Virus record (IMG/VR): IMGVR_UViG_3300035660_000087
Span: 1-23,173 of that record
Length of the DNA: 23,173 nt
DNA from: a virus
Strand: one strand, 5' to 3'
Part shown: positions 1 to 7,591 of the stretch, piece by piece
Numbering within the stretch: the first letter of the stretch is position 1
Layout: every line of letters starts with the position of its first letter
Made by a program: the position numbers and the translations under genes
The notes under the pieces: generated by a model
The model's database searches: none
What the model saw: the letters and a program-made list of their open reading frames with translations, nothing else
What the model was told of the DNA's origin: nothing

Positions 1-1
1 G

Positions 2-2401
2 GAGATGGAGACCGGAACCGGAAAAACCTACGTCTACCTGCGCACGGCGCTCGAACTCTACCGGCGATATGGGCTGAGAAAGTTCATCGCAGTGGTACCG
101 TCCGTGGCGGTGCGCGAGGGCGTGCTTAAGGCGCTCAAAGTGACGGAGAAGCATCTGCGCGAGCTCTACGGGAACACGCCCTACCGGTACTACGCTTACG
201 ACTCGGCCAACCTGTCCCAGGTGCGGCAGTTTGCGCTTTCCGATGGCGTTGAGATCATGGTGATGACGATTGACTCGTTCAACAAGGCGTCCAACGTCAT
301 CCGCCAGAGCACCGACCGCTTGCAGGGCGAGACGCCCATCCATCTGGTGCAAGCGGCCCGCCCGGTGCTGATCCTGGATGAACCTCAGAATATGGAGAGC
401 GAGCTGCGGGTGCGCGCGCTGGCCGCACTCGACCCGTTGTTCGCGCTTCGCTACAGCGCCACGCATCGCAACCCCTACAACGTCGTCTATCGCCTCTCCC
501 CATTCGAGGCCTACCGGCAGGGCCTGGTCAAGCGCATTGAGGTCGGCTCCGTCGTGCAGTCTGACGACGAGAACCTGCCCTTCCTCCGCCTCGACCAGAT
601 TCGCGCCGAGAAACGCACGCTCACCGCGCGAATCGCTCTTCACAAGCTGATGAAAAACGGTACGGTCAAGGAGCAGGTGGTCACGGCCCGCCCTGGCGAC
701 CGCCTTGAGGAGAAGGCCGGGCGACCGGAGTACGCCCCGTTTGTGGTGGACGAGATCGACGCGGCCGCGGGCGTGGTGACCTTCGCGAATGGCGACGAAC
801 TCCGCCTCGGCGAGACCAAAGGCGCCGACAAGGATGCTATCTTCGCGGCTCAGATCCGGTACACCGTGGAAGCGCATATGCGCAAGCAGGCGCGTCTGCG
901 CGGCGCCGGCATCAAAGTGCTCTCTCTGTTCTTCATCGACCGGGTCGACAACTACGTTCGCGAGGACGGTATCATCCGTCGGCTCTTCAACGAGGCGTTC
1001 ACTGACCTGAAGGTCCAACATTCAGGCTTTCGGGAGGTCGACGCGGCCGCTGTCCAAGCAGCCTACTTCGCTCAGCGCCGCACGCGCGCCGGTCAGGTCG
1101 TCTACGAGGACAGCAGGACCGGCGAAGCCGAACGGGACCGAGAAGCATACGAGCTCATCATGCAGGAAAAAGAGCGACTGCTCTCCTTTGATGAGCCAAC
1201 CGCGTTCATCTTCTCCCACTCGGCGCTCCGCGAGGGGTGGGACAACCCAAACGTCTTCCAGATCTGCACGCTCAACCAGACTGTCTCCGAGATGAAGAAG
1301 CGGCAGGAGGTGGGCAGGGGCGTGCGCCTTGCCGTCAACCAGAACGGCGACAGAGTACACGATGAGCAGATCAACGTCCTGACCGTGGTCGCGAACGAGA
1401 GCTACGAGCGCTATGTCGAGCGTCTGCAATCCGAGATCGAGGCGGAGTACGGCATGGAAGGTCTGCCGCCGAAGCCGGCCAACGCGCGGAAGCGCCGAAC
1501 CGCTCGACTACGCAAACAATACACGCTGCGACCGGAGTTCCGGGAGCTATGGGACAAGATCAAGCAGAAGACGCGCTATGCCGTCAGGATCGACTCTGAG
1601 CGACTGATCGCCGAGGTCTTGGCGGAGTTGGACAGGATCACCATTGCGCCACCCCGGGTCACCATCACCAAGGCGCAGGTGGAAGTCGAAGGCGCAGACG
1701 AGTTCGTGGCCCGCCAGGCAACCGCGACTAGGACGGTTATCGAGCTGCGCGGGAGGTACGTCTCACCTAATCTGGTCGGGCTGATGGAGCATCTTCTGCT
1801 TCACACCACGCCTCCTGTTCGGCTGACTCGGCGGACGCTGCTGGAGATCTTCCGTCGCAGTGCGCAGAAGCAGGCCGCGCTCGACAACCCCCACGGCTTT
1901 GCCACTGAGGCGGTGCGCATCGTCAAGGAGAAGCTGGCCGATCAGCTCGTTGCCGGAATCCAGTACGACAAGATCGACGAGTGGTACGAGATGTGCCAGT
2001 TCGAAGGAGAGATCGAGAGCTGGGAACAGTACCTGGTGCCGGCCAAACGCTCTGTGTATGATCACGTGATCTTCGAATCCGACACTGAGCATGAGTTCGT
2101 GCAGGGGCTGGAGCGGCGGGATGACGTGCGGCTCTATCTGAAGCTTCCCTCATGGTTCACGGTGCCGACGCCGGCAGGCGAGTATAACCCCGACTGGGCG
2201 ATCGTGATGGAGGATCGAGACGAGCACGGTGAAGCGCGGGGCCGGCCTCTCCTGTACCTGGTCCGCGAAACGAAAGACACGACCGACCGCGGCAAACTCA
2301 GACCCGACGAGCGCCGGAAGATCGAATGCGGGGAGAGGCATTTCGGGAGGGCGCTTGGAGTGGATTACGGGGTGGTGACGAGCGCGGGGGAGTTGCCGTG
2401 A
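2..2401 (+). CDS. res: Type III restriction enzyme, Res (helicase/endonuclease) subunit, 5'-truncated by window edge
   Basis: ATP-dependent translocase and nuclease subunit of a type III restriction-modification enzyme, which cuts DNA with unmethylated sites when complexed with the Mod methyltransferase. The frame is open to the first base, so the true start lies outside the window; the fragment opens on the Walker A motif METGTGKT. Superfamily 2 helicase motifs follow in order: motif II ILDEPQ near residue 125, motif V REGWDNPNVFQ near 405, and motif VI QEVGRGVRL shortly after. The C-terminus carries a PD-(D/E)xK-type nuclease core, NPDWAI near 727 and VRETK near 753, followed by LRPDERRKIECGERHF, which is characteristic of type III Res proteins. 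No frameshift is visible over about 800 codons, so it looks intact apart from the edge. Mod is normally encoded upstream and is not visible. It converges on the amidoligase operon. Family assignment is secure; activity is inferred. Confidence 0.95.
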   Translation, partial: EMETGTGKTYVYLRTALELYRRYGLRKFIAVVPSVAVREGVLKALKVTEKHLRELYGNTPYRYYAYDSANLSQVRQFALSDGVEIMVMTIDSFNKASNVIRQSTDRLQGETPIHLVQAARPVLILDEPQNMESELRVRALAALDPLFALRYSATHRNPYNVVYRLSPFEAYRQGLVKRIEVGSVVQSDDENLPFLRLDQIRAEKRTLTARIALHKLMKNGTVKEQVVTARPGDRLEEKAGRPEYAPFVVDEIDAAAGVVTFANGDELRLGETKGADKDAIFAAQIRYTVEAHMRKQARLRGAGIKVLSLFFIDRVDNYVREDGIIRRLFNEAFTDLKVQHSGFREVDAAAVQAAYFAQRRTRAGQVVYEDSRTGEAERDREAYELIMQEKERLLSFDEPTAFIFSHSALREGWDNPNVFQICTLNQTVSEMKKRQEVGRGVRLAVNQNGDRVHDEQINVLTVVANESYERYVERLQSEIEAEYGMEGLPPKPANARKRRTARLRKQYTLRPEFRELWDKIKQKTRYAVRIDSERLIAEVLAELDRITIAPPRVTITKAQVEVEGADEFVARQATATRTVIELRGRYVSPNLVGLMEHLLLHTTPPVRLTRRTLLEIFRRSAQKQAALDNPHGFATEAVRIVKEKLADQLVAGIQYDKIDEWYEMCQFEGEIESWEQYLVPAKRSVYDHVIFESDTEHEFVQGLERRDDVRLYLKLPSWFTVPTPAGEYNPDWAIVMEDRDEHGEARGRPLLYLVRETKDTTDRGKLRPDERRKIECGERHFGRALGVDYGVVTSAGELP

Positions 2402-2489: not shown

Positions 2490-2900
2490 TCAGGTATCGG
2501 CCGCCCGTCCTCCGTGCTCGGTAGTCCAGCTTGTCAGTGACGCACCTGGTTCATACCCGGCGGCGATGTCGCCCTCATACACGAGAATCGCATCCTGGAG
2601 GAGCTTCGCCAAGCTCAGGCCGGTACTCTCGGCGAGTTCGCGCATCCGAGTGGCGAGCGGCCCTCGGATCGCCACCGTGAGCATGTCGTCATGCACACGC
2701 GGCCGTAAACGGCGCGCCGTGTGCGCCTGTGTCGGGCTTTCGGTCGCCGGTTGGGGTTGGGCCTCGGCTTGCTGCTGTTCGCGGCGTTGTCGCCGCGTTT
2801 GGGCACCTCGTTGGGCGGCCTCCCGCCGGCGCTCGGCCTGCTCGACCAGCCTCTGCTCGGTGCGTTCTGCTACTGCGTCTCGTCGGGTTCGTCTCGGCAT
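2490..2900 (-). CDS. Small basic protein with C-terminal ribbon-helix-helix-like domain
   Basis: A 136-residue protein, last gene of the amidoligase operon. Residues about 1-65 are rich in Arg, Glu and Gln and probably form a charged helix or coiled coil. Residues about 70-125 look like a ribbon-helix-helix fold: a short strand (DMLTVAIRG), a helix (PLATRMRELAESTG) and a second helix (SLAKLLQDAILVYEGD). Such proteins usually bind DNA as dimers and repress their own operons, so it could recognise the palindrome before the first gene; that link is inference. The ATG has a good AAGGAG-type ribosome site with about 8 nt spacing, inside the end of the preceding gene, with a 31-nt overlap. Alternatives are a relaxase-accessory or plasmid-type protein, or an antitoxin without a visible toxin. 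Confidence 0.65.
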   Translation of the reverse strand: MPRRTRRDAVAERTEQRLVEQAERRREAAQRGAQTRRQRREQQQAEAQPQPATESPTQAHTARRLRPRVHDDMLTVAIRGPLATRMRELAESTGLSLAKLLQDAILVYEGDIAAGYEPGASLTSWTTEHGGRAADT

Positions 2901-3067
2901 CTGTTTCTCTCCTTTTCCCAGTCTTGTTTCGCTTCACGAAGTACGTCATCAATCTTCTGCACCACGTCAGGCGGGGGCGGCCCGAGGACGCTGTGAACAA
3001 CGTCAAGGATGACTCGGCGCAGGCGCTGCCATATCTGCTCATGGCGGCCGGTGCGTTGGTCGCTCAC
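2870..3067 (-). CDS. Unrecognised 65-aa protein in amidoligase operon
   Basis: I do not recognise this protein. It is short, charged and predicted to be mainly helical (EQIWQRLRRVILDVVHSVL, then DVVQKIDDVLREAKQDW), with a Gly-Pro-Pro-Pro-Pro hinge between two helices. It has no signal peptide or membrane segment. It starts at a GTG that overlaps the TGA of the 104-aa gene (GTGA), and its 3' end overlaps the RHH-like gene by 31 nt, so its place in a coupled operon is the main support for its being real. It could be a small scaffold or partner protein; no function should be assigned. Confidence 0.5.
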   Translation of the reverse strand: MSDQRTGRHEQIWQRLRRVILDVVHSVLGPPPPDVVQKIDDVLREAKQDWEKERNRCRDEPDETQ

Positions 3068-3378
3068 AGGTCAACCGTCCCCTTGTCCGGTATGGCTTCT
3101 TGCTCCAGGCGGCCTAGCTCGCACGCCAGGACCGCGACTACCGGACGCACCTCGTCACTCGGCTCCAGTTCCCAACCGCGCTCGTAGACCGCGGTTTCCT
3201 CACCGCCCTTCTTCTTCGGCCCCGTCCACAGGTACAGCTTGCTGACCTGGCCGCCGTCAATCCCGTAGTGGCTGGGCTCCGCGAACACCAGCGCCTCAAA
3301 GTGGCGATCATCCACGCGTCCGACGTACCAGACGCCGCCGCTGAGGCCGGCGTGCTTACTGGTGATTCTGATGCTCAT
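3064..3378 (-). CDS. Unrecognised 104-aa protein coupled to the amidotransferase gene
   Basis: The protein starts MSIRITSKHAGLSGGVWYVG and contains conserved-looking stretches (FEALVFAEPSHYGIDGG, VSKLYLW) typical of a compact beta-rich domain, followed by an acidic C-terminus. I do not recognise the family and give no function. The reading frame extends further 5', but the ATG at the given start is chosen because it forms a 4-nt ATGA overlap with the stop of the glutamine amidotransferase gene, as elsewhere in this operon. No signal peptide or membrane segment is visible. The coupling implies it is made in proportion to the amidotransferase, so it may be a substrate, carrier or accessory of the amide-forming reaction; this is inference only. 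Confidence 0.65.
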   Translation of the reverse strand: MSIRITSKHAGLSGGVWYVGRVDDRHFEALVFAEPSHYGIDGGQVSKLYLWTGPKKKGGEETAVYERGWELEPSDEVRPVVAVLACELGRLEQEAIPDKGTVDL

Positions 3379-4118
3379 GCTCGCCTCCAGGACCTCGTCC
3401 CCTTCGTCCGCTCTTTCTGGATCACCACTTGCCCGTCGCTGACCTCCATCCGGTAGACGATGCCCGGCCGCGCGGCCGCGAAGCGCGCGTGCAGGCCGAC
3501 TGCCGCCAGCGCATCCTGTGCAATCTCCTCTGTCGAGGCCCACCAGAGGCCACCCACGCCCTCCACACGGAACGCCACCAGGGGCATCTCCCCGTTGGTC
3601 CAGGCCAGCATCCCCCGCGTGCGGGTGTTGATGGCGAGCACCGACTGCTTCCCGCCGAGGGACAGGCATACGTCCGGGCCGGCGCGTTCTCCGTAATGGC
3701 AGAGCGCCTGCACCAGGAGTTCCGAGTCACATTGCGAGTGCAGCGGAAGCCGGAGCTTGGCTGCCTTCTCCTCGTGAGCCGGCAGGAATCCGTTGTGCAC
3801 CAGCGCCCAGTCGCCGGCGAGGTGAGGATGGTTGTTACCGTTGACGGCCGGTGCGCCGGTGGTAGCGAGTCGAGTATGGCCGATCGCCATCACCACGTTC
3901 CGGCGGCGCAGAGCGGTGAAGTCCGAGCTGCCAAAGAGCTCACGCGCCGGCCCGGGCTGCCGCCGCCAGAGCAGATCGCCTGACGAGGTGAGGGCGGCGA
4001 ATCCGGCGGCGTCTACGCCGCGGACCTCGGATGCGACGGCGAGCTCCACCATCAACTGGTGAGCGGCCGTCCAATCCCGGCGGGTAAGCTTCCCGATGAA
4101 TCCGAAGACCCCGCACAT
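3375..4118 (-). CDS. Stand-alone class II glutamine amidotransferase (GATase)
   Basis: An N-terminal-nucleophile glutaminase domain without a synthase partner domain, 247 aa. It starts MCGVFGFIG, so Cys2 becomes the nucleophile after Met removal. Other class II (GlmS/PurF-type) signatures follow in order: RGVDAAG at 33-39, GHTRLAT at 80-86 (Arg83 binds the glutamine carboxylate), NNHPH at 95-99, VHNGF at 107-111 (oxyanion Asn-Gly) and DSE at 131-133. It has the length of the glutaminase domain alone and lacks SIS or phosphoribosyltransferase domains, so ammonia must pass to another protein; the adjacent amidoligase is the obvious candidate. It begins one base after the amidoligase TAG stop and overlaps the next gene by ATGA. 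Biochemical class is secure; acceptor is unknown. Confidence 0.92.
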   Translation of the reverse strand: MCGVFGFIGKLTRRDWTAAHQLMVELAVASEVRGVDAAGFAALTSSGDLLWRRQPGPARELFGSSDFTALRRRNVVMAIGHTRLATTGAPAVNGNNHPHLAGDWALVHNGFLPAHEEKAAKLRLPLHSQCDSELLVQALCHYGERAGPDVCLSLGGKQSVLAINTRTRGMLAWTNGEMPLVAFRVEGVGGLWWASTEEIAQDALAAVGLHARFAAARPGIVYRMEVSDGQVVIQKERTKGTRSWRRA

Positions 4119-4119
4119 G

Positions 4120-5064
4120 CTACGCCGCCCCCTGGTCGTACTTGCGGGCGAGACGCTTCAGCTCGCGCTTGACCGGCTTCACGTCCTCGATCGGCGCTAT
4201 CCATCCCGCGAGGTGCACCTCCGACTTGCCCACGTCTCGCCGGCCTAGCGTCCATCCCGTCAGGTACATCAGGCGGTTGAGCTCGCGCAGGCCCCGCCCG
4301 TTCGTGTGGTAGGTCTTCTCGGAGGCGATGCTCTCCCAGTCCATTCTGGTGGTTTCTGTTGCCCGCTCGGCGAGGGCGAGGCAGGTGCAGATGTGGCCGA
4401 TCATCTTGGTGGCCTCAGTGGTCCCTGCCGGGAAGCGAAACTCGACCGTCGCCTTTGAGGTGAAGAGGTTGGTGAGGTTGAGTGTGTGGTAGCGGTCCAG
4501 TCCGTAGACGACATCTCGGAGTGCTTCGCGCTTGCGGTGGTCGCTGGCCTTGCGCACCTTGTCCGCGGCCTCCTTCTGGCGCTTCACGCTGCGGGAGTAG
4601 CTTCCGTTCTCCCGACGATGGGTTCCGGTGGAGGCGTAGAGCGCGGTCTCGTGCATCGCCGTCTGGTAGAGGAGCTTGCCTACCCATTCCGCCACCTCGG
4701 CGTGACTCTCTCCGGCGACGCTGCGCGCGCCCACGTGGACGTGCATCCCGGTGGTCTGGTTGACGGTGGCTTCGAGGCTGCGCAGGATTCCGGCTACCTG
4801 CTTCACCTGCTCGATACCCGCCCGGCCCTGCAGGATGGGACTCACTATCTCGACCGCGACGAAGCCGCGCCGGTCGGTGTGCAGGCTGCCGTCTCGCTCC
4901 GCCGTCCAGCCCTGCGGGAAGGGGGCGGGCAGGGGATGCCCATGATGGTAGGAGCCGACGCTAATGCCCAGTTCCTGCACCTTGCTCTGGGGTAGGAAGC
5001 ACTCGATCTCTATGCCCCAGGTGTAGCTCTCCGCTTTGCTGCTCGCCGTCTGCGTCTGGCCCAT
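4120..5064 (-). CDS. Amidoligase_2-type COOH-NH2 ligase, first gene of operon
   Basis: A 314-aa protein of the putative amidoligase family related to glutamine synthetase/gamma-glutamyl-cysteine ligase, which joins a carboxylate to an amine using ATP. Typical motifs in order: GIEIE at 17-21, ERDGSL at 56-61, EIVSPIL at 72-78, GMHVHVG at 106-112, a LNLTNL segment near 195-200 and TVEFRFPAGT at 206-215. The Glu and His residues in these motifs are expected metal and ATP ligands. The ATG given here is preferred over an in-frame ATG 27 nt upstream: it has AAGGAG at 10 nt, whereas the longer form would start inside the palindrome and lack a ribosome site. Comparative genomics (Iyer, Aravind and colleagues, 2009, from memory) links such ligases with glutamine amidotransferases in phages and mobile loci. 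The substrate is unknown. Confidence 0.9.
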   Translation of the reverse strand: MGQTQTASSKAESYTWGIEIECFLPQSKVQELGISVGSYHHGHPLPAPFPQGWTAERDGSLHTDRRGFVAVEIVSPILQGRAGIEQVKQVAGILRSLEATVNQTTGMHVHVGARSVAGESHAEVAEWVGKLLYQTAMHETALYASTGTHRRENGSYSRSVKRQKEAADKVRKASDHRKREALRDVVYGLDRYHTLNLTNLFTSKATVEFRFPAGTTEATKMIGHICTCLALAERATETTRMDWESIASEKTYHTNGRGLRELNRLMYLTGWTLGRRDVGKSEVHLAGWIAPIEDVKPVKRELKRLARKYDQGAA

Positions 5065-5083: not shown

Positions 5084-5099
5084 GCAAACATCTGTTTGC
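5084..5099. promoter_or_regulatory. Perfect 16-bp palindrome, candidate operator of amidoligase operon
   Basis: GCAAACA, a 2-nt centre, then TGTTTGC: a perfect 7+2+7 inverted repeat. It lies between the proposed -10 element and the ribosome site of the amidoligase gene, where a bound dimer would cover the transcription start. A ribbon-helix-helix-like protein is encoded at the end of the same operon and is a natural candidate ligand. The repeat is seen directly; the regulatory role is inferred. Confidence 0.55.
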
Positions 5100-5108
5100 G
5101 TTAGTCAC

Positions 5109-5136
5109 ATTGTGCCATAGAAAGGGCAACAGTCAA
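5109..5136 (-). promoter_or_regulatory. Sigma70-like promoter for amidoligase operon
   Basis: On the minus strand TTGACT (5131-5136) is separated by 16 nt from CACAAT (5109-5114), matching 5/6 and 4/6 of the consensus hexamers. A second TTGACC lies immediately upstream (5137-5142). Transcription would start near 5102, just before the palindrome and about 38 nt before the chosen ATG. The region is AT-richer than its surroundings. Confidence 0.5.
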
Positions 5137-5201
5137 GGTCAAAGTGAGTGGTTTCTTGGTGGGAATGCCGGCCCGGCACGCGCGCAGGCCTGGTCCTGCC
5201 G

Positions 5202-5230
5202 GTGACCTGCGGCCAGCTCTGTGGTAGTAT
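5202..5230 (+). promoter_or_regulatory. Sigma70-like promoter for cupin-GNAT gene
   Basis: GTGACC (5202-5207), a 17-nt spacer and TAGTAT (5225-5230), with a TG-rich run just before the -10. Transcription would start near 5237, giving a leader of about 34 nt before the GTG start at 5271. It faces away from the amidoligase promoter, so the two operons are divergent with about 70 bp between promoters. Confidence 0.5.
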
Positions 5231-5270
5231 GCGGCTGCTATTAGCCGAGAAGGCGAGGAGGCCAGACTCA

Positions 5271-6158
5271 GTGCTGATCAGGCAACGGGACCGGGCCCCG
5301 TTCGACTTCCACGGTTTGGCAGTCCGCGACTTCGGTGTGGTGGCCGACGGATCGGTATCTGTGGCAACCGTCGACGTGCCGGCGCACGCCGAGCATCGGT
5401 TCGCGTACTCCTCGGCGTGTCACAAGCTCTACCTTCTGCTTGAAGGTTGTCTACGGTTCGACGTGGACGGGGTGGCGTACGAAGCTGAGAGCGGAGATCT
5501 CGTTGCGATCACGAAAGGTACCACGTTCCGGTACTTCGACCACCGTGGTATCCCGGCGCGGCTGCTGCTCGTGCACTCACCTCCCTTCGACAGCGGAGCG
5601 GAGCACATCATCCCCAACTTGCTGAGAGAGCATGACGTGCATCTGACAGGCGAGCGCGTTCGCCTCCGGCCAATGAAGGAGAGCGACTGGAAGCCTGTGC
5701 TTGCCTGGAACGCGGACTCGGAGGTGCTGATGTGGGCGGATTGCACCGACGAAGTACGGCCACCAGAGGAGACGAAGGCGATATACCGGGGAGTCTCGCT
5801 GTTCGCCCACGTCTTCATCATCGAGCTCGACGGCGTGCCCATCGGTGAGTGTTGGCTCCAGAAGATGAACATGCCCGACATCATCGCGCAGTTTCCAGAC
5901 CGCGACCTGCGACGGATCGATCTCGCGATCGGTCGGAAGGAACTGTGGGGTCAGGGGCTGGGGAGTGACACGATCAGGACGCTTGTCAGGTTCGGCCTTG
6001 AGCAGGAGAAGGCAGACGGGATCTTCGGGCTCGTTGATCGGAAGAACGCGAGGAGCTGGGGAGCGTTTCGGAAGTCGGGGTTCCACGAGCTTCAACTCGG
6101 AGGCGGCGAGCAAGTGCTAGTGACGTGGCGGGAGACTCGGGGCGAGGGATCGGGATGA
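5271..6158 (+). CDS. Cupin-GNAT acetyltransferase fusion protein
   Basis: A 295-aa two-domain protein. Residues about 10-100 form a cupin-like beta barrel (VATVDVPAHAEHRF, YLLLEGCLRFDVDG, ESGDLVAITKGTTFRYF), with His residues in the first motif that could bind metal. Residues about 122-290 are a RimJ/RimL-type GNAT N-acetyltransferase: LTGERVRLRPM at its start, the acetyl-CoA motif GRKELWGQGLGSD, and a C-terminal NARSWGAFRKSGFHE. It would transfer an acyl group from acyl-CoA to an amine; the cupin half may bind the acceptor. The GTG is preferred to upstream in-frame starts because GAGGAGG lies 9 nt before it and a promoter lies further upstream, whereas an ATG at 5229 would overlap the -10. 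It is coupled by ATGA to the next gene. Some aminoglycoside acetyltransferases are distant relatives, so antibiotic modification is possible but unproven. Confidence 0.82.
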   Translation: MLIRQRDRAPFDFHGLAVRDFGVVADGSVSVATVDVPAHAEHRFAYSSACHKLYLLLEGCLRFDVDGVAYEAESGDLVAITKGTTFRYFDHRGIPARLLLVHSPPFDSGAEHIIPNLLREHDVHLTGERVRLRPMKESDWKPVLAWNADSEVLMWADCTDEVRPPEETKAIYRGVSLFAHVFIIELDGVPIGECWLQKMNMPDIIAQFPDRDLRRIDLAIGRKELWGQGLGSDTIRTLVRFGLEQEKADGIFGLVDRKNARSWGAFRKSGFHELQLGGGEQVLVTWRETRGEGSG

Positions 6159-7591
6159 GCGCGATGGCAAGTTTCGACGGCACGACACCTGAGTACCTGA
6201 GGAGGCCGCCACAGCCGGCAGGTGCCGAAGCGGTGCCGGCGCTGCGTGTTGAGGACGGCTCTGGAACGCTTCGGTGGCAGGTGCCGGTCGCGCTGTACTC
6301 TTATCCGCGAGAGGACTTGGGCGGCTTCCGCTATCCGGCAGGGATCACCCCAGAGCGGCCGCTGAAGGTGAAGGGGCCACTGGTGTTCGTTGGCTACGGG
6401 CTGACGCGCGAGGGATGGGATGACTATCAGGGCAGCCAGGTCGGGGGCAGCATCGCGGTGATGTTCACAGGAACGCCGCAGACCGAGCCGGAGGCCGACC
6501 ATGCGGATGCGACCGAGTTCGAAGCCTGGTCCGACCTGATCCGCGAGAAGGTAGAGAACGCCAAAGCGCACGGCGCAGTCGCTGTGTGGCTGGAGCGCAA
6601 CCCACTGAGTCCGCAAGATGGCGGGCACGTGTTCTTCCACCCGAGCCGATCACCTTCGCTGTGGGGAGCGGTGGTGGGATCGGAACTACCGCTTCCGACT
6701 TTCTGTGCGGGCACCGACACACTCGGCGTCATCGTCGGACTTAGCAGCGACCTCTACGGAGGACACCGCACACCTGGGGATGGCGCGCTGACCGGCCTCC
6801 TGAGGGAGGCTGAGAGTGCGAAACGCGGTCTAGGGCCGGTCCTCTTGGCGCTGGTGGGCGAGCTGATATGGGAAGGCGGACAGCTTCAGAAGTGGGAAGG
6901 AAGGCGCTGCACAGTCTGGTACCAGCCGGGCTCACCTGCGGCACGCGACGTCGACGCGGTGGGGCGGGAGTGCGAGAGCGCGCTACGCGACATCGAGCTG
7001 CTGCTCTCGGCGCACGTCGAAGAGCGTGTCATCGTGCTGCTTTTCGGCGACTGGCGAAGTAAGATGTACGGCACGCGCACGCTGGGGTGGGGGTCAGGCG
7101 GCGACGGGCGCATGGCTATGGTCTACGAGGGGACAGACGCTGATCGGGAGACCCTGCTCCACGAGTTATGTCACGTGGTGGCCGGCGCCATGGGTAGCAA
7201 CAATCCGCCCGCGTGCCTCGCGGAGGGACTGGGCGAACTCGTAGGCAAGACGCGAGGTGAACTGCGGTCGGTGCAGGCCGGCCGAATAGGGGCGGATGAG
7301 GTGACCGCGGCAAATCTGTGCGGCGGGAGGCTGTGGACGTTACAGGAACTGATTCAACTGTCGGCAATCGGCCCAGAGGGGACGAACCCGGCCGTCGCCT
7401 ACCCGGAGGCCGCGTCGCTCTGTGCGTTCCTCATACGACAGGTCGGATTCGACGGGTTCAGGAAGCTTTACCGGGAGCTCAAGTCGGGTGACTTGCCCCT
7501 GATCACTGCCGGCCTGGAGCGTGCGACTGGGCGGGATCTGACTCAGCTTGAAGCCGACTGGCACGCATACCTGACGGGGAAGACAGACTAG
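6155..7591 (+). CDS. PA-like domain fused to HExxH gluzincin (MA-clan) peptidase-like domain
   Basis: A 478-aa protein with two recognisable parts. Residues about 70-160 resemble the protease-associated insert of M28 aminopeptidases (LVFVGYGLTREGWDDYQG, IAVMFTGTP, and a helix with KAHGAVAVWL). Residues about 250-475 resemble the Peptidase_MA/M1-like gluzincin fold: LLHELCH supplies His336, Glu337 and His340, and LAEGLGE after a 16-residue gap supplies the likely third zinc ligand Glu357. Catalytic residues are intact. Related proteins are usually secreted, but no signal peptide is visible from the chosen ATG, which overlaps the cupin-GNAT stop (ATGA) and follows a GGCGAGGG-like ribosome site. 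It may therefore act inside the cell. The 3' end overlaps the oppositely oriented phage amidase gene by 89 bp. Confidence 0.75.
   Translation: MSAMASFDGTTPEYLRRPPQPAGAEAVPALRVEDGSGTLRWQVPVALYSYPREDLGGFRYPAGITPERPLKVKGPLVFVGYGLTREGWDDYQGSQVGGSIAVMFTGTPQTEPEADHADATEFEAWSDLIREKVENAKAHGAVAVWLERNPLSPQDGGHVFFHPSRSPSLWGAVVGSELPLPTFCAGTDTLGVIVGLSSDLYGGHRTPGDGALTGLLREAESAKRGLGPVLLALVGELIWEGGQLQKWEGRRCTVWYQPGSPAARDVDAVGRECESALRDIELLLSAHVEERVIVLLFGDWRSKMYGTRTLGWGSGGDGRMAMVYEGTDADRETLLHELCHVVAGAMGSNNPPACLAEGLGELVGKTRGELRSVQAGRIGADEVTAANLCGGRLWTLQELIQLSAIGPEGTNPAVAYPEAASLCAFLIRQVGFDGFRKLYRELKSGDLPLITAGLERATGRDLTQLEADWHAYLTGKTD

Follow-up and report, generated by a model that had tools for sequence, protein, structure and literature searches.

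Sequences and modelled structures make it very probable that an amidoligase (AMI) and a stand-alone glutaminase (GAT), encoded side by side in a probably temperate phage, together act as an enzyme that is powered by glutamine and amidates some component of the cell. The two are the first genes of a five-gene operon in the window, which here means the whole IMG/VR virus record IMGVR_UViG_3300035660_000087 (23,173 bases). We lean, at somewhat below even confidence, towards a split glutamine-dependent AMI-GAT amidotransferase that is carried as a prophage moron and would most likely act on a carboxylate of the host envelope. AMI and GAT are the conserved core of the operon, both being present in every related phage locus examined, and the three genes behind them look accessory or regulatory to this prophage lineage.

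The operon and its two enzymes

The record is classed as linear in IMG/VR and is thus perhaps a fragment. Tail, lysis and other late genes lie on the minus strand of the window, which also carries all five operon genes, from 5064 down to 2490. AMI (4120..5064, 314 aa) starts with an ATG at 5064, preceded by AAGGAG, and the start position is the same in homologues. After a 1-base gap, GAT (3375..4118, 247 aa) starts at 4118 and shares ATGA (3378-3375) with the gene for a 104-aa protein (3064..3378), which in turn shares GTGA (3067-3064) with the gene for a 65-aa protein (2870..3067). The last gene (2490..2900) encodes a 136-aa protein with a basic N-terminus and an RHH-like C-terminus and overlaps the 65-aa gene by 31 nt (2900-2870). 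Every junction was re-read, and the genes, their strand and their overlaps matched the initial annotation. For every gene tested, the dN/dS ratio between the window and its relatives stayed below 1 (AMI 0.19-0.37, GAT 0.20-0.45, RHH-like gene 0.21-0.31, 65-aa gene 0.54-0.72), the 65-aa gene being the least constrained and fastest-changing among them. These ratios, together with the family E-values given below and the gene order and exact 31-nt overlap retained in relatives, indicate that the genes are not chance ORFs.

AMI matched Amidoligase_2 (PF12224) with an E-value of 2.7e-23 and 83.6 bits, above the curated cut-off of 22. The AlphaFold model of AMI, built from a 22-sequence input, had a pLDDT of 87.7 and a pTM of 0.91. 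Its top structural matches were 1tt4 (VIA Z 14.2) and YbdK (1r8g, VIA Z 13.8), followed by glutamine synthetases and plant glutamate–cysteine ligase (GCL) at Z ~12-13, while a sequence search of the PDB gave no relevant match. E19, E21, D58, E72, N102, H108, H110, R191, N196, E208, R210 and K220 were invariant among 22 sequences reaching down to ~22% identity. AMI therefore combines a modelled GS-type fold with conserved Glu/His catalytic motifs, and the loss of these motif residues, which had been raised as a point against the system, was seen in none of the 22 AMI sequences. The family match, fold and intact active site agree with the ATP-dependent COOH-NH2 ligase initially assigned to this gene, and AMI looks like a catalytically competent glutamine-synthetase-fold carboxylate-amine ligase that depends on ATP.

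GAT matched PF13522 (GATase_6, E 4e-12), and a profile search matched it to GlmS (E 2.4e-13). The GAT model (pLDDT 93.8) gave VIA Z scores of 27.6 for PurF, 26.7 for GlmS and 23.0 for EgtC. The nucleophile Cys2 and R83, N109, G110 and D131 were intact and invariant in 25 viral sequences, so that the N-terminal Cys, the Arg/Asn-Gly/Asp glutamine site and the Ntn fold of a class II glutaminase were all found, in line with the stand-alone glutaminase of the initial annotation. Against the EgtC model TIGR03442 of NCBIfam, on the other hand, GAT scored 19.5 bits (E 5e-4), far under the cut-off of 218.65. In sequence and modelled fold, GAT is closer to the ammonia-producing glutaminases PurF and GlmS than to EgtC, and it looks catalytically competent.

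Conservation of the pair and turnover of its neighbours

An AMI-based scan returned related phage loci at 64–75% identity, with GAT adjoining or near AMI in all of them; in most close relatives the two genes are separated by a 1-base gap or overlap slightly. When viral loci were collected with a GAT profile, 73 of the 80 had a same-strand amidoligase, in nearly all cases directly adjoining, and no AMI–GAT fusion protein was found among the 80 loci. The amidoligase was absent from view at seven, at least one of which lies at a contig edge. The co-occurrence suggested earlier as a check was thus found for the amidoligase-GAT pair, which is conserved and phage-borne. In the AMI tree, the window AMI fell into a clade of 26 sequences (support 0.997), all of the single-amidoligase type except for two Phycisphaerae loci, where an AMI of 43% identity stands without GAT.

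Two viral layouts were recognized. One has a single amidoligase of ~300 aa followed by GAT; the other (L090-L152, e.g. L131:578-4886) has a 600-aa amidoligase, GAT, usually a conserved ~104-aa protein, and a 390-aa amidoligase. The ~104-aa protein of the second layout usually ends in TNIGV, and with this fixed C-terminus it is a more promising candidate for a substrate than any window protein. GGCT was present in 19 of 21 two-amidoligase records. It was found in none of ten relatives of the window, although a control search was positive, and in none of ten other single-type records; some of the records searched are fragments. A Pfam search of the five window proteins gave no GGCT in the operon, and no ATP-grasp gene was found there; R2K_3, the ATP-grasp family searched, occurred in one of ten relatives, ~36 kb from the operon. 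Armatimonadota genomes also contain AMI–GAT–GGCT operons. This division into single-amidoligase systems free of GGCT and double-amidoligase systems that carry it hints at two chemistries.

The genes behind GAT are less stable. Both small proteins had been described as unrecognised; this held for the 65-aa protein, for which Pfam and PHROG gave no family above cut-off, but the 104-aa protein matched DUF7678 (PF24726, E 5.7e-19; phrog_4709). No DUF7678 match was found in five related phage records, in a search run without a positive control. The slot after GAT is filled by a 227-aa ORF starting MREFLYHGT and a 74-aa ORF in L003, L004 and L006, by the 74-aa ORF only in L002, and by 84-aa and 74-aa ORFs in L007. 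Neither ORF of the first three loci (L003:7870-8774, L004:7870-8774, L006:7681-8585) has a confident family; the start of the 227-aa ORF (LYHGT) gives the impression of an ADP-ribosyltransferase, and the 74-aa ORF is weakly HicA-like (PADLOC E 0.0012). Elsewhere, DUF7678 homologues are often flanked by a DNA methyltransferase and a terminase, with or without an amidoligase. DUF7678 was also considered as a marker of amidoligases and rejected, being found with AMI and GGCT in Heliusvirales phages, yet also in amidoligase-free phage regions. The DUF7678 gene occupies a variable cargo slot outside the conserved core.

At six loci (the window, L002, L003, L004, L006 and L007), the 65-aa gene and the RHH-like gene stand in the same order and overlap by exactly 31 nt. 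The RHH-like protein has 68-74% identity in five relatives and accompanies AMI-GAT in every case, and searches that included an RHH-like scan found no homologue of either protein outside this phage group. For the 136-aa protein, Pfam and PHROG gave neither a family above cut-off nor an RHH/CopG profile match; the RHH label is an impression from its sequence, and a DNA-binding regulator of the operon is a possible role. Because relatives carry other genes in the DUF7678 slot and the 65-aa and RHH-like genes are confined to the lineage, the self-contained five-gene system of the initial annotation was rejected.

Prophage setting and putative control sites

In relatives, the operon follows genes for NlpC/P60 or amidase endolysins and for a holin-like protein. 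A serine recombinase and DUF2924 are encoded at the far end of near-complete relatives, from which we infer that these phages are probably temperate and that the operon sits at a prophage end. Its siting beside lysis genes may also reflect no more than this position, one open to any accessory gene. In the window, a cupin-GNAT gene (5148-6158) and a PA-domain/peptidase-MA-like gene (6125-7591), both on the plus strand, separate AMI from the endolysin; they are absent at this spot in the relatives read.

The operon does lie between a restriction gene and late genes, as first described, but the restriction gene is probably a flank of the Armatimonadota host, since the Res protein (5–2401) is 70% identical to Res of an Armatimonadota genome and unrelated genes are found there in relatives. 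The equivalent spot holds HsdM in L003, a DNA methylase in L007 and unrelated genes in L006. As a probable host flank, the restriction gene was rejected as a functional partner of the operon. A 5-kb contig of an Armatimonadota (Ca. Hebobacteria) bin carries an AMI of 64% identity with GAT, and the host likely belongs to Armatimonadota. Beyond the RHH-like gene, the R-M flanks differ (window 1-2401, L003:9665-10708, L007:9397-12276), suggesting that these prophages integrate beside R-M or defence loci. A search for words common to both prophage ends gave no convincing att site. Three contig ends begin at apparent gene start codons, which suggests provirus trimming.

Upstream of AMI, a scan located a putative promoter on the minus strand (5109..5136, TTGACT-16-CACAAT, with TG before the second hexamer). 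One such site was found against 0.8 expected in shuffles, which is weak on its own. Ten of 11 related loci, the window counted, have TTGACT at most 180 nt ahead of AMI, compared with 2.6% of background windows, a contrast inflated by the kinship of the loci. Between the promoter-like site and the AMI start lies a perfect inverted repeat (GCAAACA-GA-TGTTTGC, 5084..5099), a candidate operator, and a related motif, CAAACAG-GTG, was found upstream of AMI in L002, L003, L004, L005 and L018. Moreover, a terminator-like stem with a T-rich tail stands just ahead of the operon in L003 and L018, and the same stem folds also in L002, L004 and L006. With these predicted elements, the operon is arranged as a moron, i.e. 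as an insulated accessory unit that has its own promoter-like site. In G005, the record of L008 and the largest relative, elements resembling TTGACT-N~18-ATGAATG occur at 3987, 4520, 19271 and 44655, the one at 4520 upstream of AMI, and the copies are possibly a phage-wide promoter type.

Proposed reaction, rival readings and known systems

In the proposed reaction, GAT would hydrolyse glutamine at Cys2 and hand the ammonia to AMI, which, from its fold and residues, would use ATP to convert a carboxylate through an acyl phosphate into an amide. Following predictions in the literature, the most likely substrate would be a carboxylate of a host cell-envelope precursor, e.g. of a peptidoglycan stem-peptide residue, and the infected or lysogenic cell would be altered, e.g. 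become less accessible to other phages. The genes for DUF7678, the 65-aa protein and the RHH-like protein would be co-translated passengers or regulators and encode no enzyme subunits. The folds and active sites, the co-occurrence of AMI and GAT, the nearness of GAT to PurF and GlmS, and the failure to find GGCT, which would act on gamma-glutamyl products, in the tested records of the clade all support a split amidotransferase. Its own promoter-like motif, the upstream terminator-like stem and the place after holin-like/endolysin genes in relatives support a moron. Against the proposal stand the Phycisphaerae AMI loci without GAT and the 7 of 80 GAT loci where no AMI was seen, and free amines are the usual substrate of GS-fold enzymes. 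We know of no characterised two-subunit amidotransferase made of a GS-fold ligase and a separate class II glutaminase, and that prophages amidate the host envelope with an enzyme of this build is a doubtful proposition. An envelope target has been proposed for phiEco32/LUZ24-type cassettes from genomic context (PMC5498523, PMC11945000, PMC10580990).

The strongest rival is gamma-glutamyl chemistry, in which AMI would join glutamate to an amine, an EgtC-like GAT would remove or trim the gamma-glutamyl group, and no ammonia would be transferred. GCL, EgtA and PuuA are enzymes that join glutamate to amines. YbdK and plant GCL are among the nearest folds of AMI, EgtC is a close fold of GAT with a weak NCBIfam match, and the sister systems add GGCT, a gamma-glutamyl enzyme. 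The greater likeness of GAT to GlmS and PurF in sequence and fold, and the absence of GGCT from the tested records of the window's clade, argue against this chemistry without settling the question, and we consider it unlikely. Amidation of a small molecule, a nucleotide or a DNA base, for example in metabolic takeover or phage DNA modification, would suit the related AMI-GAT pairs of other phages that have terminase or helicase and ParB genes as neighbours instead of lysis genes. An unsystematic look at near-complete relatives, on the other hand, noticed no base-hypermodification gene, and this role appears quite improbable.

The initial annotation had also proposed that a protein or peptide is modified, with the 65-aa or DUF7678 protein as substrate or carrier. 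Although tight gene overlaps, and the small protein with a conserved C-terminus that two-amidoligase systems place between GAT and the second amidoligase, fit such a role, no evidence supporting it emerged for the window proteins. DUF7678 is swapped among relatives, and the 65-aa gene, the fastest-changing one, was not found with AMI-GAT outside the group, which leaves the carrier role highly improbable. Very unlikely, too, is an anti-phage or toxin-antitoxin-like module with the changing third gene as its effector. The ADP-ribosyltransferase-like start and the weakly HicA-like ORF in the relatives' slot point in that direction, whereas none of the five window proteins matched PADLOC at E <= 0.01, the flanking Res being the only match in the window, and AMI and GAT occur elsewhere without these third-slot genes.

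Our preferred reading, the split amidotransferase, has precedents in gene content. Iyer et al. (2009) reportedly predicted that phage amidoligase/GAT systems modify the cell wall. The association itself has been reported for LUZ24-like, OM43, Pseudoalteromonas and Arthrobacter phages (PMC3890496, PMC10580990, PMC5498523), and we found no report in the literature of a measured reaction of any amidoligase–GAT pair. In the cassettes of phiEco32, LUZ24/UFV-P2 and RIO-1/PSA-HP1, as in the window, a phage carries an Amidoligase_2 gene and, close to it, one for a class II GATase (PMC3890496, PMC5498523). The predicted amide-forming chemistry is also shared, and in the window the two genes likewise form one operon. 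In contrast to these cassettes, the window operon has neither GGCT (0/10 in related records, possibly fragments) nor ATP-grasp (R2K_3 in the one distant case among ten relatives), its GAT is 247 aa long and not ~486 aa, and it lies at the late/lysis end of a prophage whereas they are early genes. OM43 phages also have amidoligase and GAT genes (PMC10580990). In the Arthrobacter phages Ottawa and Edmundo, AMI and GAT are adjacent and in the same order, but these pairs are ~24-29% identical to that of the window and have other neighbours, with a hydrolase gene before AMI in Edmundo. AMI and GAT are also neighbours in the operons L159, L161 and L162 of Armatimonadota, the phylum of the probable host, but these operons differ in having GGCT as the third gene and in a separate AMI branch.

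Ergothioneine synthesis also combines a GS/GCL-fold ligase, EgtA, and a class II GATase-fold protein, EgtC, in one pathway, although the window GAT resembles GlmS and PurF more than EgtC. MurT-GatD, which amidates D-Glu of peptidoglycan, is the proposed analogy for a two-subunit glutamine-dependent amidation, and its GatD is class I. MurT is Mur-ligase-like (PMC3267633), whereas the window pair consists of a GS-fold ligase and a class II glutaminase. Amidoligase–GAT pairs were found on dozens of diverse viral contigs in this analysis. The pair in the window is not new in itself but is a minimal form of the known phage system, without GGCT or ATP-grasp. As the smallest version, with two enzymes, no second ligase and apparently its own promoter, it offers a convenient starting point for identifying what the whole family acts on.
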